Assembly: GCF_002101705.1 (NCBI RefSeq)
Contig: NZ_LQPC01000026.1
Coordinates: 248,001 to 312,000, forward strand
Source: Mycolicibacterium iranicum
GTDB lineage: Bacteria; Actinomycetota; Actinomycetes; Mycobacteriales; Mycobacteriaceae
Direction of reading: 5' to 3'
Length of the DNA stretch: 64,000 nucleotides
Both the position numbers and the translations under genes were made by a program. The notes beneath the pieces are model-generated. The model was not told the origin of the DNA. It saw nothing but the letters and a program-made list of their open reading frames with translations, and made no database searches. Numbering within the stretch: position 1 is the stretch's first letter; the number at the start of each line of letters is the position of its first letter. Shown here in pieces: positions 53,315 through 58,077 of this stretch.

Positions 53315-54853
53315 TTACGTCGCCTCGGCTCCCACCTTCGCCGGAACAAGCGGCTCTTCTTCGAAACGATCCGGCTCGTCGAGCACATCGTCGAGATCTT
53401 CGGCGACCTTGATGTCGAGTCCACGCAGATGAGCGGCCGGCGTGGCCAACGACACCGCGACATAGGTGAGCAGGCCTGCGGCGAACGCGATGAACGTCGG
53501 CCAGCCGTCGAACGACGCGCCCATGAGGTCGTTGGGAATGTAGAGGATGGTGTTCTCGACACCGAACATCGTCGGCGTCATCACGAAAAGCCCGATCCGG
53601 ACCACGAATCCGACTGCGATGGCGGCCATCGCGGCCGTCGTCGTCCCCCGTCGCCACACCAGGCCGAGGATGAACGGCACCGCCAGGCAGGCAAGCATCA
53701 GATCGAAGGCCAGAGTCAGCAGGATGCCCGTCTGCTGGACGTAGATCGCGAACACAATCGAGAACAGCGTCATCGGCACCATTGCGATCCGGGTGGCTTT
53801 CAGCAGCGGGTCCTTCTGGCCGGGCACATGGACGCGCCGTACGCCGCCGAGATTGCGCACGCACACATTGGAGATGGCCAGGATCGCACCGTTGGCGGTG
53901 GACATCGACGCACCCACCAGACCGCACAGCACCAGCACCGTCAGCCCGACAGGGGCGTACTGATCCAGGAGCACGAACAGCACCGGGCCGTCGAGCTCCT
54001 CAGGCATGAACGAATGCGCCGCCAGCACAACGAGTCCGAACGGCACACAGATCGCGACGACGCCCGCGGACGCGGAGAAGCAGGCCCTACGCGCCGCCTC
54101 GGGCGACTTCGCCGAGAACACGCGCGCCATGAAGTCGATCGCGACGATGTCACCGATACCGAGCGCGATCAACGTCGCCCAGTTGATGACGGCGCCCTGC
54201 GCCGGATCCGACAACTGACCCAACGCGAAAGGTCCTGCGCCATCGGCGATGTTGATGCCGTGCGTGCTCGACATCCAGATGAACAGACCGATCGCTCCGA
54301 ATAGGATCAGCGTCATCTGGATGATCGCGGTGTAGGCGTCGGCGATCAGGCCGCCGGTTCCTGTGTAGGCCACAGCAATTGCCGCGATCAGCACCACGCC
54401 GAGCCAGTACGGCATGCCAAGGAAGTAATTGAACAGCAGCCCGCCTGCCACGAGGTTGCCGGCCACCAGCATGCAGAACGCGATGGCGAGCAGGATCGAC
54501 GAGCTGACTTCCACCGAACGGCCGAAGCGCAGGCGGTAGTAGTCCGGGAACGATGTCAGCCCCATCCGGTTCATCGGCTTGGCGAAGAAGATGCCGGTGA
54601 TGAGCAGGCACAGTGCCAATCCGAGTGGCAGACATGCACCGGCCCAGAAGCCGAATTCGAAGGCGAGATCGGTGTTGCCGAGCGTGGCGTTGGTATCGAC
54701 CGCCGCACCCATCAGGGCACCGCCGACCAACCAGAATGGCAGCATCCGGCCGCCGACAAGGAAATTGGAGCTGTCGCCCTCGATCCTCTTCGACACATAG
54801 AAGCCGACGGCCACGACCACGGCGATGCTTATCGCAACCCCGAGAAGAATCAT
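53315..54853 (-). CDS. Sodium:solute symporter family protein under guanidine-I riboswitch
   Basis: The 512-aa membrane protein has about thirteen transmembrane helices of the SSS/SSF family: FLVGGRMLPFWLVGGALMG early, then FPDYYRLRFGR and the conserved GLVGASMSTANGAILAISN segment. The leader contains a ykkC-type guanidine-I aptamer, so the substrate is probably guanidine or a closely related compound (inference). The Shine-Dalgarno AGGAGG is part of a palindrome, CAGGAGCCTCCTG on the plus strand (54857-54869), that could hide it. Divergent from the hydrolase gene. Confidence 0.88.
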   Translation of the reverse strand: MILLGVAISIAVVVAVGFYVSKRIEGDSSNFLVGGRMLPFWLVGGALMGAAVDTNATLGNTDLAFEFGFWAGACLPLGLALCLLITGIFFAKPMNRMGLTSFPDYYRLRFGRSVEVSSSILLAIAFCMLVAGNLVAGGLLFNYFLGMPYWLGVVLIAAIAVAYTGTGGLIADAYTAIIQMTLILFGAIGLFIWMSSTHGINIADGAGPFALGQLSDPAQGAVINWATLIALGIGDIVAIDFMARVFSAKSPEAARRACFSASAGVVAICVPFGLVVLAAHSFMPEELDGPVLFVLLDQYAPVGLTVLVLCGLVGASMSTANGAILAISNVCVRNLGGVRRVHVPGQKDPLLKATRIAMVPMTLFSIVFAIYVQQTGILLTLAFDLMLACLAVPFILGLVWRRGTTTAAMAAIAVGFVVRIGLFVMTPTMFGVENTILYIPNDLMGASFDGWPTFIAFAAGLLTYVAVSLATPAAHLRGLDIKVAEDLDDVLDEPDRFEEEPLVPAKVGAEAT

Positions 54854-54876
54854 GCGCAGGAGCCTCCTGATAGAGA

Positions 54877-55000
54877 TTGGAGTCTCCCGGGCTTTTGTCC
54901 CGCCGTGGAACGACCGGGCTCCGATGCCGACCGCCTGCGTCTCTCGGACCAGACCCGGCCCGATTCACTCGGCCCGGCGGAACCCTAGGCGCGCCCCACA
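54877..55000 (-). promoter_or_regulatory. Guanidine-I riboswitch (ykkC class)
   Basis: Read on the minus strand, the hallmark blocks occur in order: CTAGGGTTCCG (54978-54988), a P1a hairpin, CTGGTCCGAGAGA (54940-54952), a second variable hairpin, CCACGG, and GGGACAAAAGCCCGGGAGA (54883-54901). This is the consensus of the guanidine-I aptamer. The symporter start is 24 bases further downstream; a CTCC just after the aptamer could pair with the AGGAGG, suggesting translational control. Outer limits are approximate. Confidence 0.92.
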
Positions 55001-55141
55001 CTTTTTCTGCGGGTCTCAGTCAGGAAAGACCTGGTGTGTTTCGTGTTGTCGCGCCGCGTGTTAACGATGCGTTTCAGTCAGCGCTGGACAGGCATTGCGC
55101 GACGTGCCAAGAATGGGTCCAGGCGGCGGTATCACCGCGCC

Positions 55142-55182
55142 CCGGACGAGTGCGTCGTACCCGGTCTGCGACAAGACGGCGC
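55142..55182 (+). promoter_or_regulatory. Guanidine-III riboswitch (ykkC-III class)
   Basis: The 41-base stretch contains the nearly invariant blocks CCGGACGAG, CGTACCCGGTC and ACAAGACGGCGC of the ykkC-III pseudoknot aptamer, with only small differences in the variable loops from the Thermobifida fusca example as I recall it. It ends four bases before the GAGGAG Shine-Dalgarno (55186-55191) of the hydrolase gene, placing ligand binding where it can control ribosome access. A hairpin around 55122-55140 precedes it. Confidence 0.9.
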
Positions 55183-55196
55183 TGTGAGGAGATCTC

Positions 55197-56345
55197 GTGT
55201 CCGATCGACCCGATCCATCCCTGCCGAACGCCGAAGGCGCGTGGGCTCAACAGGTCGAAGCCAATCTCGGCGACCGCCGGCTGCGCGAGGAGATCGACCG
55301 CGGCCTGAGCTACGGCCTGGAGGCCGCTCCCACGATCAACGACAGGACGATCTCGACGTTCGTCCGCGGCGAGAAGCCGCATTTCGCCGGCGAGCGCGGG
55401 ACATTCCTGAAGTGCCCGTTCATCGAGGACGTCAACGAGGTCGACGACGCCGAGGTCGCGATCTTCGGCGTCCCACTGGACGCCGGCGCGACGTATCGGC
55501 CCGGCACGCGGTTCGGCCCCCAGGGCATCCGCCGCTCCACCAACCTGTTCGGCACCTACAACTACGAGTCGGGTGTCGACCTGCGCGAGCAGCTCAACAT
55601 GGTCGACATCGGCGATGTCTTCACGATCCCCGGCAATCTGGAGAAGTCTTTCGACCAGATCAGCACCGCGATGGCGCACGTAGTGCAAAAGGGTGTGATG
55701 CCGATCGTGCTCGGCGGTGACCACTCGATCGGGTTTCCGACGATCCGTGGCATGGCGCCCTACATGGACGGCAATATCGGCATCATCCATTTCGACAGGC
55801 ACGTCGACACGCAGGAGACCGACCTCGACGAGCGGATGCACACCACCCCGTGGTTCCACGCCACCAATATCAAGAACGCGCCGGCGACGAACCTGGTGCA
55901 GATCGGCATCGGCGGGTGGCAGAGCCCCCGAGAAGGCGTGAAGGTGGGCCGCGAACGCAAGTCGACCGTGATCACCGTCGGCGACGTCGAGCGGGTCGGG
56001 ATAGAAAAAATTGCGGAGACGGCGCTAGAGATCGCGTGGAAGGGCGCCAAGGCGGTCTACCTGTCGTTCGACATCGACGTCATCGACGCCGGTTTCGTGC
56101 CGGGCACCGGTTGGCCGGAGCCGGGCGGCCTGCTGCCGCGCGAGGCGTTGAACCTGGTGAAGATGATCTCCGAGCCCGGCCTGGCCGGCATCGAGGTGGT
56201 GGAATGCTCGCCGCCCTACGACTGGGCCGAGCAGACGGCCCTGATGAGCTCGCGCGTGATCCTCGACAGCCTCGCCGCGCAGGTGCGCTCGGGCAAGCTC
56301 GGCCGCAAGGCCGCCAAGGCCGACCGGCCCGCCTGGGGTCCGTAA
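55197..56345 (+). CDS. Agmatinase/ureohydrolase-family protein, probable guanidine hydrolase
   Basis: The 382-aa protein has a 70-residue N-terminal extension and a ureohydrolase domain with binuclear-metal ligands: GGDHS (His176), FDRHVD (Asp200, His202, Asp204) and SFDIDVID (Asp292, Asp294). The extension and the MHTTPWFHATN and VQIGIGGWQ segments recall nickel-dependent guanidine hydrolases (GdmH) rather than standard agmatinases. A guanidine-III riboswitch directly upstream supports guanidine to urea plus ammonia. GTG 55197 with Shine-Dalgarno GAGGAG. No nickel-insertion gene is nearby. Confidence 0.88.
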   Translation: MSDRPDPSLPNAEGAWAQQVEANLGDRRLREEIDRGLSYGLEAAPTINDRTISTFVRGEKPHFAGERGTFLKCPFIEDVNEVDDAEVAIFGVPLDAGATYRPGTRFGPQGIRRSTNLFGTYNYESGVDLREQLNMVDIGDVFTIPGNLEKSFDQISTAMAHVVQKGVMPIVLGGDHSIGFPTIRGMAPYMDGNIGIIHFDRHVDTQETDLDERMHTTPWFHATNIKNAPATNLVQIGIGGWQSPREGVKVGRERKSTVITVGDVERVGIEKIAETALEIAWKGAKAVYLSFDIDVIDAGFVPGTGWPEPGGLLPREALNLVKMISEPGLAGIEVVECSPPYDWAEQTALMSSRVILDSLAAQVRSGKLGRKAAKADRPAWGP

Positions 56346-56434: not shown

Positions 56435-56884
56435 ATGCAGCTCACTCGCTTCACCGATCTGGCGCTGCGGGCGATGATGCTGTTGGCCGCCGGCGAGAAC
56501 GACGAACAACGGGTCACCACCCGCCAGATCGCCGCCGCTGCAGGCGCTTCCGAACATCACATCGCCAAGGCGGTGTCCCGACTCGTCGACCTCGGCCTGG
56601 TCCATGCCCGCCGCGGCCGAGTCGGCGGGCTGTCGTTGACCGACGCCGGCCGCGCCGCCTCCATCGGTGGGTTGGTGCGCGAACTCGAAGGCGACCGCGA
56701 GGTCATCGACTGCCACGGCCAGGGAACCTGCCCGCTCATCGCGGGCTGCCGGTTGCGCCGCGCGCTGGCCGAGGCCAAAGAGGCGTTCTACGCCGAACTC
56801 GACCGCTACACCATCACAGATCTGGTGCGCAGCCCTGCGCTTCCACTCCTTCAGATAGCACCGCCAGAGAGGAACAGTCGATGA
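56435..56884 (+). CDS. nsrR: Rrf2-family nitric oxide-sensing repressor NsrR
   Basis: The 149-aa regulator has an N-terminal winged helix (about 10-60) and three Cys at positions 93, 99 and 105 (DCHGQGTCPLIAGC), the same spacing and numbering as recalled for the [4Fe-4S] NsrR of Streptomyces coelicolor. NO destroys the cluster and releases the DNA. It overlaps hmp by ATGA, and the palindrome upstream suggests autoregulation. Confidence 0.92.
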   Translation: MQLTRFTDLALRAMMLLAAGENDEQRVTTRQIAAAAGASEHHIAKAVSRLVDLGLVHARRGRVGGLSLTDAGRAASIGGLVRELEGDREVIDCHGQGTCPLIAGCRLRRALAEAKEAFYAELDRYTITDLVRSPALPLLQIAPPERNSR

Positions 56885-58077
56885 CCGTCACTACCACCCG
56901 CGAGGACCTGAAACCCGATCAGGCCGAAATCATCTCGGCGACACTGCCGTTGGTGGGTGCGCACATCGACGAGATCACCACCGAGTTCTACCGCCGGATG
57001 TTCGAGGCGCATCCCGAGTTGTTGCGCAACCTGTTCAACCGCGGCAATCAGGCCCACGGCGCACAGCAGCGGGCGCTGGCCGCGTCAATCGCCACCTTCG
57101 CCACCCATCTGGTCGATCCCGACCTGCCGCACCCCGCCGAGATGCTGTCGCGGATCGGACACAAGCACGCATCGTTGGGCGTCACCGCGGATCAGTACCC
57201 GATCGTCGAGGAGCATCTGTTCGCCGCGATCGTCGCCGTCCTGGGCGCCGACAACGTCACCGAAGACGTCGCCGCCGCATGGGATCGGGTCTTCTGGATC
57301 ATGGCGAACACATTGATCGCGCTCGAACACGACCTCTATGCCGGCGCCGGGGTCGCCGACGGCGACGTGTACCGCCGTCTGCGGGTGACACAGCGGGTCG
57401 ACGACCCGTCCGGCGCGGTACTGGTCACCGTCGCGTCCAATACCAAAAGCTCTCCCGGTCAATATGTTTCGATCGGGGTGACGCTGCCCGACGGCGCACG
57501 ACAGCTCCGCCAGTACAGCCTGGTGAACGCACCCGGGGAAGATCTGACGTTCGCGGTGAAGCCGGCTGGGGAGGTGTCGGAGTGGATCCGCGCGAACCTT
57601 CGCGTCGGCGATCTGCTCGATGTCACCGTGCCCTTCGGTGATCTGCCCACCCCCGGCCCGCAGGTACCGGTGGTGCTGGTCTCGGCGGGCATCGGTATCA
57701 CCCCGATGATCAGCATGCTGGAGCATCTGGCCACCACGGCGCCCGAGACGTCGGTGCTGGCGCTGCATGCCGACCGCTGCGACACCAGCCACCCGCTGCG
57801 GGAACGACAGCGGGAACTGATCGACGCGCTGCCCAACGCGTCGCTGGCCATCTGGTACGAGGACGGTCTGACCGCGGGTGATCCCCGTGTGCACGCCGGC
57901 CGAATGGTGCTCGACAACCTTCGAGGTGGGCAGGAAATCCCCAAGGACGCACACGTCTACGTCTGCGGAACGGACGGATTCGTCCAGGCGGTGCGTCCGC
58001 AACTGCTCGACCGCGGACTGCCCGCCGATCGGGTGCACTGCGAGCTGTTCTCGCCCAACGACTGGCTGCTGGGATAG
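56881..58077 (+). CDS. hmp: Flavohemoprotein (nitric oxide dioxygenase)
   Basis: The 398-aa protein has an N-terminal globin domain (about 10-140) with proximal His in RIGHKHASLGV, then a ferredoxin-reductase module with FAD motif RQYSLVN and NAD motif SAGIGITPMISML. It oxidises NO to nitrate using NADH and oxygen. Coupled to nsrR by a four-base overlap. The pair is absent from this position in M. tuberculosis as recalled, so it looks like an insertion next to the guanidine genes. Confidence 0.94.
   Translation: MTVTTTREDLKPDQAEIISATLPLVGAHIDEITTEFYRRMFEAHPELLRNLFNRGNQAHGAQQRALAASIATFATHLVDPDLPHPAEMLSRIGHKHASLGVTADQYPIVEEHLFAAIVAVLGADNVTEDVAAAWDRVFWIMANTLIALEHDLYAGAGVADGDVYRRLRVTQRVDDPSGAVLVTVASNTKSSPGQYVSIGVTLPDGARQLRQYSLVNAPGEDLTFAVKPAGEVSEWIRANLRVGDLLDVTVPFGDLPTPGPQVPVVLVSAGIGITPMISMLEHLATTAPETSVLALHADRCDTSHPLRERQRELIDALPNASLAIWYEDGLTAGDPRVHAGRMVLDNLRGGQEIPKDAHVYVCGTDGFVQAVRPQLLDRGLPADRVHCELFSPNDWLLG

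Follow-up and report, generated by a model that had tools for sequence, protein, structure and literature searches.

A conserved mycobacterial locus with a guanidine-I and a guanidine-III aptamer ahead of divergent symporter and predicted guanidinase genes

Gene units for guanidine breakdown that are controlled by riboswitches have been described in distant groups of bacteria. An assimilation unit found in the enterobacterial genera Raoultella, Erwinia and Klebsiella carries a class I riboswitch on the genes of an importer and a carboxyguanidine deaminase and a class II riboswitch on those of guanidine carboxylase and allophanate hydrolase (PMC12186494). In comammox Nitrospira, a single guanidine-I element precedes an APC permease and a guanidinase gene, with no nickel chaperone gene beside the latter in the locus as described, and the same account places ykkC-III elements in two comammox genomes without adjoining guanidine genes (PMC11410670). 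The operon encoding the guanidine hydrolase GdmH in Synechocystis is described with guanidine-I only and contains nickel-delivery and ABC transporter genes (PMC8390497, PMC12186494), while ykkC-III elements before emrE and speB genes of Actinobacteria were noted already in 2010, in a description that includes neither a divergent partner nor a guanidine-I element (PMC2864571). Here we characterize a locus of Mycolicibacterium iranicum, a mycobacterium of the soil type, where a guanidine-I and a guanidine-III aptamer share one intergenic region and precede the divergent genes of a sodium:solute symporter and a predicted guanidinase. It is contained in a stretch of 64,000 nucleotides (assembly GCF_002101705.1, contig NZ_LQPC01000026.1, positions 248,001 to 312,000 of the forward strand), which we call the window and whose numbering is used for all coordinates. 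Its central features are the following:

Positions 54999 to 54882, minus strand: guanidine-I (ykkC) aptamer, RF00442, 69.5 bits (cut-off 63 bits), E-value 1.3e-11, model positions 1 to 107 of 107.
Positions 55121 to 55185, plus strand: guanidine-III (ykkC-III) aptamer, RF01763, 60.9 bits (cut-off 36 bits), E-value 1.8e-11, model positions 1 to 67 of 67.
Positions 53315 to 54853, minus strand: sodium:solute symporter (SSF) of 512 amino acids, PF00474, 91 bits (cut-off 22.8).
Positions 55197 to 56345, plus strand: likely GdmH-type guanidine hydrolase of 382 amino acids from the arginase family, PF00491, 256 bits.

With the enterobacterial system, the locus has in common that two guanidine riboswitch classes serve one proposed utilisation unit, whereas it combines class I with class III instead of class II, is organized divergently instead of placing the second gene set immediately downstream and contains an SSF symporter and a guanidinase instead of an ABC importer and a guanidine carboxylase (PMC12186494). 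It resembles the comammox locus in the association of a riboswitch-controlled GdmH-type guanidinase with a secondary transporter but contains two aptamers (PMC11410670), and the proposed unit would share with Synechocystis both the GdmH enzyme and a urease that finishes the urea (PMC8390497, PMC12186494). In tandem riboswitches, several aptamers occupy one regulatory region of a single transcript (PMC9481103, PMC12452182), whereas in the window each transcript would carry one. A tandem arrangement was considered and ruled out, as the aptamers are located on opposite strands, face in divergent directions and do not follow each other on one transcript. A survey from 2022, in which guanidine-I, -III and -IV were not found in tandem (PMC9481103), and another from 2025, which lists tandems of T-boxes and guanidine riboswitches in Bacillota (PMC12452182), have no bearing on the divergent layout.

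An initial annotation, made without database searches, had proposed two different guanidine riboswitch classes in this region from short consensus blocks, all six of which were found in the sequence. Scanning with cmscan against the Rfam covariance models, the check that this annotation had suggested, returned a significant full-length match on each strand, and RF00442 and RF01763 are the sole Rfam families exceeding their cut-off in the 64-kb window. The guanidine-III aptamer contains the conserved ACGA core of its class. Within the entire genome, guanidine-I was detected at one and guanidine-III at two places.

We have investigated the distribution of both classes in samples of 201 genomes of the family, 297 genomes of the genus including that of the window, and 394 genomes of the class. 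These samples were drawn from larger groups, and the searches, which in sets exceeding 40 genomes employed stricter filters, will have lost some weak matches. In the family sample, guanidine-III is found in 138 and guanidine-I in 6 genomes. Guanidine-I is present in 79 genomes of the genus sample, 55 of which also contain guanidine-III, and occupies 83 places, 41 of them above the cut-off. At 32 of these 41 strong places, the window included, it is adjacent to a guanidine-III aptamer at a distance of 113–227 nucleotides, in all cases in divergent orientation. The 42 places below the cut-off, evaluated as further members of the unit, were discarded, since none is paired and neither symporter nor GdmH was found in the 11 loci fetched (L132 to L142). 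A wider spread of the pair was not found either: guanidine-I is present in 36 genomes of the class sample (11 from the genus and 25 others), and no neighbouring pair was detected in the 27 guanidine-I genomes outside the genus, which comprise these 25 and 2 of the same family.

For a comparison of the paired regions, 49 of them were reduced to 36 by the removal of identical ones. As these 36 regions are mutually related, the counts obtained from them do not represent independent events, and the set is confined to loci with a guanidine-III match above the cut-off, thus excluding L054, L056, L057, L109, L128 and L129. Helix P1 of guanidine-I shows changes from C-G to T-A at two positions. It also contains a flaw, a C-A mismatch at one position in 5 of the 36 aptamers including that of the window, where the other 31 have C-G or T-A. 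The outermost pair of the model is C-A in all 36, and P1 therefore consists of at most five pairs. In helix P2 of guanidine-III, one pair appears as T-G, T-A or C-G and another as C-G, T-G or T-A, as counted on the strands of the same relatives. The presence of two aptamers of different classes is thus confirmed, and chance is excluded by the E-values, the compensatory changes in the 36 relatives and the conservation of the pair, which is seen for 32 among the 41 strong guanidine-I places. The initial annotation had further called the coexistence of two classes unusual, which holds in part: classes I and II are known to coexist in enterobacteria (PMC12186494), and classes I and III together are the usual case for strong guanidine-I places of the genus. 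In ykkC RNAs, an adenosine at position 46 (A46) marks subtype 1, which comprises the true guanidine aptamers, and a pyrimidine at this position subtype 2 (PMC6031431). At the presumed specificity site, as mapped in our own analysis, all 36 paired guanidine-I aptamers contain the sequence AGAG. We infer that both aptamers of the window would bind guanidine and thereby change the expression of the adjoining genes.

The plus-strand gene, previously annotated as agmatinase-like, does belong to the arginase family, although a refined assignment appears warranted. Among proteins of known structure, 9fek (507 bits) and 7esr and 7oi1 (495 bits) are the best matches to its product, compared to 163 bits for the next chain, and the product falls just below the NCBIfam cut-off for agmatinases (171.6 vs 174.3 bits). 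The entry 7OI1 is GdmH of Synechocystis (PMC11410670). The chain 9fek, named 'putative agmatinase 2' in the PDB, we take to be the guanidinase of Nitrospira inopinata, because the residues reported for this guanidinase align with the chain at an offset of two positions. In an alignment with 220 identical positions in 361 columns, the residues T99, H215, W306 and E336 of the hydrolase match all four diagnostic positions of guanidinases (Thr105, His222, Trp313 and Glu344 in N. inopinata numbering; PMC11410670), with the chain numbering shifted by two. The gene thus likely encodes a GdmH-type guanidinase rather than an agmatinase, for which a Ni-dependent hydrolysis of guanidine is predicted. Among the matches listed, its nearest named GdmH relative is 98% identical and originates from Mycolicibacterium iranicum, in line with the proposed mycobacterial origin of the DNA. 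For the symporter, the top-scoring solved structures are choline transporters of the SLC5 family (75 and 50 bits), which carry organic cations. Its genetic linkage to guanidine-I leads us to predict that this member of the SSS/SLC5 family imports guanidinium.

The relationship between aptamers and genes was analyzed in named GdmH loci, which are the best 80 of at least 583 confirmed relatives. Here and in the other fetched loci, the absence of a symporter, GdmH or aptamer refers to the stretch retrieved (up to about 9 kb). The gene calls in these loci and around the genomic motif matches described below stem from a simple script based on GC content by codon position, which is crude and in some cases wrong, as for the frames opposite to the symporter in L074 and L090. 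Both families in divergent orientation were found in 22 of the 80 loci, guanidine-I alone in 4, guanidine-III alone in 26 and neither in 28, one of which contains guanidine-II; in one case (L098), guanidine-III points away from GdmH. Within the mycobacterial clade, a symporter with 68–98% identity is present in 25 loci, a few of which are metagenome-assembled genomes with broader labels. All 25 contain guanidine-I and 21 contain guanidine-III above the cut-off, whereas guanidine-I was detected in one of the 52 named loci without a symporter (L092). Conversely, M. chubuense and M. chlorophenolicum have kept guanidine-III and GdmH in their 9-kb loci, from which both symporter and guanidine-I are absent. 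Most named slow growers equally contain guanidine-III and GdmH without a symporter. GdmH itself was found in 27 of 118 genomes from the genus, 12 of which are among the 32 with a pair. The nine strong guanidine-I places that are not paired comprise four with a symporter but without GdmH in the fetched stretch (G273, G352, G250 and G354), two with both genes and a guanidine-III of altered sequence (G346 and G240) and three with other genes (G449, G246 and G349). The four symporter-only stretches contain guanidine-I and no guanidine-III core, and three of the four genomes have guanidine-III elsewhere. Each aptamer thus tracks its own gene. In the window, the genes following the two aptamers, symporter (PF00474) and hydrolase (PF00491), are arranged as described initially.

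The exceptional locus L092, from a metagenome-assembled genome labelled Pseudonocardiales, displays the same divergent layout of guanidine-I and -III with an amino-acid-type APC permease in the transporter slot, whose best model is the urea-carboxylase-system permease TIGR03428 (614 bits at a cut-off of 740). Candidate readings are a replacement of the transporter, horizontal transfer or misbinning. In the slow grower L080, the gene beside GdmH reads by eye as urease alpha. Matches to RF02514 (5' ureB sRNA), a Helicobacter antisense family, were obtained in L080 and in the further slow growers L087, L088 and L112, where GdmH occurs with guanidine-III. They suggest a urease neighbour and probably reflect coding homology.

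The intergenic region contains further elements with a potential role in the control of both genes:

Positions 54859 to 54887, minus strand: predicted expression platform, a hairpin of GGAGACUCC and GGAGGCUCC that pairs the Shine-Dalgarno sequence of the symporter (54868 to 54863).
Positions 55075 to 55038, minus strand: GlnR-like half-site array GAAAC-n6-TTAAC-n17-GAAAC, core at 55075 to 55060.
Positions 55085 to 55114, plus strand: promoter-like site TGGACA-18-AAGAAT, ending 6 nucleotides 5' of the guanidine-III aptamer.
Positions 55186 to 55192, plus strand: Shine-Dalgarno sequence GAGGAGA of the guanidinase gene, beginning immediately 3' of the aptamer match.

In the leader of the symporter, whose start codon is located 28 nucleotides past the aptamer, elements follow the order CCCGGGAGAC-UCC-N8 to 13-GGAG-(R)-CUCC-AUG. 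The 5' arm of the predicted hairpin overlaps with the 3' end of the aptamer and uses its last bases. The sequence (C)UCC directly follows the aptamer in 35 of the 36 relatives and CUCC follows the Shine-Dalgarno sequence in 32. The hairpin, which includes the Shine-Dalgarno sequence, comprises between eight and ten pairs in the examples displayed and ten in the window, where its energy of –13.9 kcal/mol corresponds to a z-score of –1.49 relative to shuffled sequences. If the bases at the aptamer end are held, the median chance of a free Shine-Dalgarno sequence increases from 0.018 to 0.152. The leader would thus fit a translational ON switch, for which the energies provide weak support, whereas guanidine-I is known above all for switching at the level of transcription (PMC12186494). 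Control by termination was considered and rejected, as no terminator-like site was found on the minus strand between 54780 and 55280; the sole such match in this interval (55019 to 55035) is located on the plus strand outside of both leaders.

In the leader of the hydrolase, the start codon follows the aptamer after 11 nucleotides, and a similar Shine-Dalgarno site 3' of the aptamer is found in an alignment of 23 relatives. This placement fits the translational ON switch proposed for guanidine-III (PMC5696562). The promoter-like site upstream is the sole one between 54780 and 55280, with a mean of 0.0 in shuffled sequences, and related hexamers occur across relatives (TGGACA in 23 of 36, and AACAAT, AAGAAT or GACAAT types in 29 of 36). 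Transcription from a promoter at this position would yield a hydrolase mRNA that begins with the aptamer.

Upstream of this promoter-like site, between the two aptamers, resides the GlnR-like array. Its core GNAAC-n6-TTAAC was found in 30 of the 36 spacers, compared to 0.04 per set in 300 shuffles, and the wider pattern AC-n9-AC-n20-A[C/T] in 34, with L052 and L092 as exceptions. GCAAC replaces GAAAC in several spacers, and the second half-site reads TTAAC in 31, TTTAC in three and GTAAC in two. The array is also kept in all four symporter-only loci under a slightly relaxed core pattern. GlnR of M. smegmatis requires AC-n9-AC, with the consensus Gn2AC-n6-GnAACA, and can govern divergent genes under nitrogen limitation, as proposed for the window (PMC3662644). 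GTAAC and TTAAC match its form t/gTAAC, and TTTAC does so loosely. In the genome, all seven matches to the core were called intergenic, compared to 1 of 21 for the reversed pattern, although one of them (L149) overlaps with a called gene start and the excess reflects in part composition, as one reading frame of TTAAC includes a stop codon. Of the six other matches, three face genes for a glutamine synthetase of type I (TIGR00653, 452 bits), a binding protein of the branched-chain type (PF13458) and one of the glutamine/lysine type (PF00497). The array looks like a binding site of the nitrogen-starvation regulator GlnR, for which these observations provide good, though indirect, evidence. Another core match (L146, C28:61598-61613) is located between an HD-type and an FAD oxidoreductase gene, which by eye we take to be related to phosphonate catabolism and which could be a further nitrogen-source target of GlnR. 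Neither the array between the aptamers nor the conserved hairpin over the Shine-Dalgarno sequence of the symporter was part of the initial annotation.

The same holds for the second guanidine-III aptamer of the genome (42.2 bits), located about 100 kb away ahead of a gene encoding a 104-residue SMR protein of the SugE/Gdx type, which is closest to the SugE model but with 92 bits remains below its cut-off of 126. The SMR/SugE type includes guanidinium exporters (PMC12186494), and import, hydrolysis and export may thus perhaps all be guanidine-controlled in one genome. The genome also contains two strong and one marginal match to urease alpha.

Taken together, these features support the initial proposal of a guanidine-handling unit, with guanidine aptamers, a GdmH-type gene and a symporter in a conserved divergent layout. 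We consider it likely that the locus represents a conserved mycobacterial unit of a guanidine-I-controlled symporter and a guanidine-III-controlled GdmH, which would import and hydrolyse guanidine when it is present and nitrogen is scarce. In such a mechanism, GlnR would bind the array and activate both divergent promoters under nitrogen limitation, and guanidine would then open each of the two mRNAs. In the symporter mRNA, the aptamer end, free in the absence of ligand, would help the hairpin to cover the Shine-Dalgarno sequence, whereas bound guanidine would hold this end and loosen the hairpin. In the mRNA of the hydrolase, guanidine would cause the pseudoknot of guanidine-III to fold next to the Shine-Dalgarno sequence, which would thereby be freed. 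GdmH would convert guanidine to urea and ammonia, urease would finish the urea, and the SMR exporter behind the second guanidine-III would vent excess guanidine. Whether this amounts to a three-input control, with the array reporting nitrogen hunger and two unrelated aptamers licensing the mRNAs of importer and guanidinase, both classes being kept through gene-wise arrival and inheritance, is a question on which we are nearly evenly divided, with a slight lean towards doubt. If true, the gene pair would require nitrogen starvation and guanidine together.

Several observations weigh against this account. In three Nonomuraea loci, a symporter with 59–60% identity is found beside GdmH without a guanidine riboswitch above the cut-off, and the gene pair can therefore exist without these riboswitches. 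In six loci that contain both genes (L054, L056, L057, L109, L128 and L129), the guanidine-III is altered or extended and remains below the cut-off. Guanidinium transport by the symporter would follow from linkage, and the roles of the unit in binding, expression and growth are predictions from sequence. The hairpin energies are only modestly below those of shuffled sequences (mean z –0.93 in 36 leaders), and with the aptamer end held, the Shine-Dalgarno sequence became more accessible (by more than 0.05) in only 19 of the 36. In the window, the fold of the guanidine-III leader (55121 to 55215), from a simple calculation that does not model pseudoknots, is not unusual (z +1.20), with no strong structure over the Shine-Dalgarno sequence. 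In the array, the second half-site has a T in 34 of 36 spacers, the window included, where the M. smegmatis consensus has a G, and an enrichment by count was sought but not found, as the core occurs 7 times in the genome compared to 21 times for the reversed-pattern control. With respect to the six loci, the guanidine-III-like leaders of L054, L056, L057 and L128 might constitute a variant of the class, whereas the region is identical in L109 and L129 and looks degenerate.

Other ykkC-like RNAs were encountered in the genus. In L130, L131, L133 and L137 (G246, G349, G381 and G206), they are located before creatininase-family and type III glutamine-synthetase-like genes, as judged from a family scan in L131 alone. 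In these RNAs CTGGACCGAG replaces CTGGTCCGAG, three of the four have G in place of the A of guanidine-I, and two (L130 and L131) pass the RF00442 cut-off. They are candidates for a ykkC variant with another ligand, perhaps similar to creatinine or creatine. In L135, L136, L138, L139 and L140 (and L134), RNAs below the cut-off with the sequence AGCG at the specificity site precede TauE/SafE-type permease genes, an assignment that was tested with PF01925 in L138 and made by eye in the others. This is what would be expected of a ykkC subtype that does not bind guanidine.

Different functions of the unit are conceivable. In a detoxification system, the hydrolase would destroy guanidine that the cell produces or encounters, while the symporter would move another substrate or counter toxicity in a different way. 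Guanidine is a stressor whose riboswitches often govern exporters (PMC12186494), and the SMR gene behind the second guanidine-III conforms to this pattern. On the other side stand the presence of urease and a GlnR-like array. SSF proteins are as a family sodium-coupled importers, and an importer would worsen toxicity. Moreover, the slot of the symporter in L092 holds a permease of the APC type, a family predicted to import guanidine in comammox bacteria (PMC12186494), and we regard detoxification as quite unlikely. Similarly improbable appears the import of a different guanidino compound or cation such as methylguanidine, agmatine or a choline-like molecule, with guanidine merely signalling its breakdown. 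Such import would be in accord with choline transporters as the best-scoring solved structures and with the ability of guanidine-III to bind methyl-, amino- and ethylguanidine and agmatine (PMC5696562), but the guanidinase-type residues of the divergent partner and the presence of guanidine-I in all 25 clade loci with a symporter favour guanidine itself. A different ligand for the guanidine-I-like aptamer, which would make it a ykkC variant, as might be suspected from the two creatininase-linked RNAs that pass the same cut-off, seems highly improbable in view of the guanidine-related gene context and the AGAG found in all 36 paired aptamers as opposed to AGCG in the TauE-linked variants, based on the published subtype rule (PMC6031431) and our own mapping.

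Two further alternatives concern control. As the aptamers are unrelated RNAs whose affinities need not agree, they might provide importer and enzyme with different guanidine thresholds, as the initial annotation had proposed, but the layout is accounted for just as well if each gene is inherited separately, together with its own switch, and we consider such thresholds unlikely. The array might instead bind another regulator of the OmpR type, such as MtrA, or be a mere promoter element. MtrA uses direct repeats of the GTAAC type that resemble those of GlnR, no obvious nitrogen genes lie beside three of the six other core matches, and TTAAC and TTTAC deviate from the published second half-site. 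Conversely, the AC-n9-AC spacing in 34 of 36 spacers, the correspondence of some variants to published GlnR forms (GTAAC in two of 36 and GCAAC for GAAAC in several) and the glutamine synthetase near another core match argue for GlnR, which makes this alternative doubtful, if still worth considering.

At 56435 to 58077, the genes for a regulator of the Rrf2 family (NsrR-like) and a flavohemoglobin are located between gdmH and a nitrilase-family gene. Neither had a counterpart in the sequence retrieved around GdmH from the 80 named relatives, which covers up to 4 kb in either direction, and this nitric-oxide-type cassette therefore looks like a local insertion.

Among the open-licence papers listed, as covered by titles and the beginnings of abstracts, we found no report of a divergent unit of classes I and III, of guanidine import by an SSF protein or of guanidine genes under the control of GlnR, and the terms 'guanid' and 'agmatinase' are absent from the main text of the study on the GlnR regulon of M. 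smegmatis (PMC3662644). While two classes per unit are already known, the divergent combination of I and III looks new, as do the proposed import by a symporter and the proposed layer of control by GlnR. The proposed unit would reveal the reason for which two unrelated sensors of the same small molecule are retained within a single short spacer, with related species that contain one half of the unit as ready-made tests. It would add the SSS/SLC5 family, undescribed for guanidine in the literature searched, to guanidine uptake, place guanidine within the nitrogen-starvation response of mycobacteria and make the coexistence of several guanidine riboswitch classes directly testable in a fast-growing mycobacterium of the laboratory.
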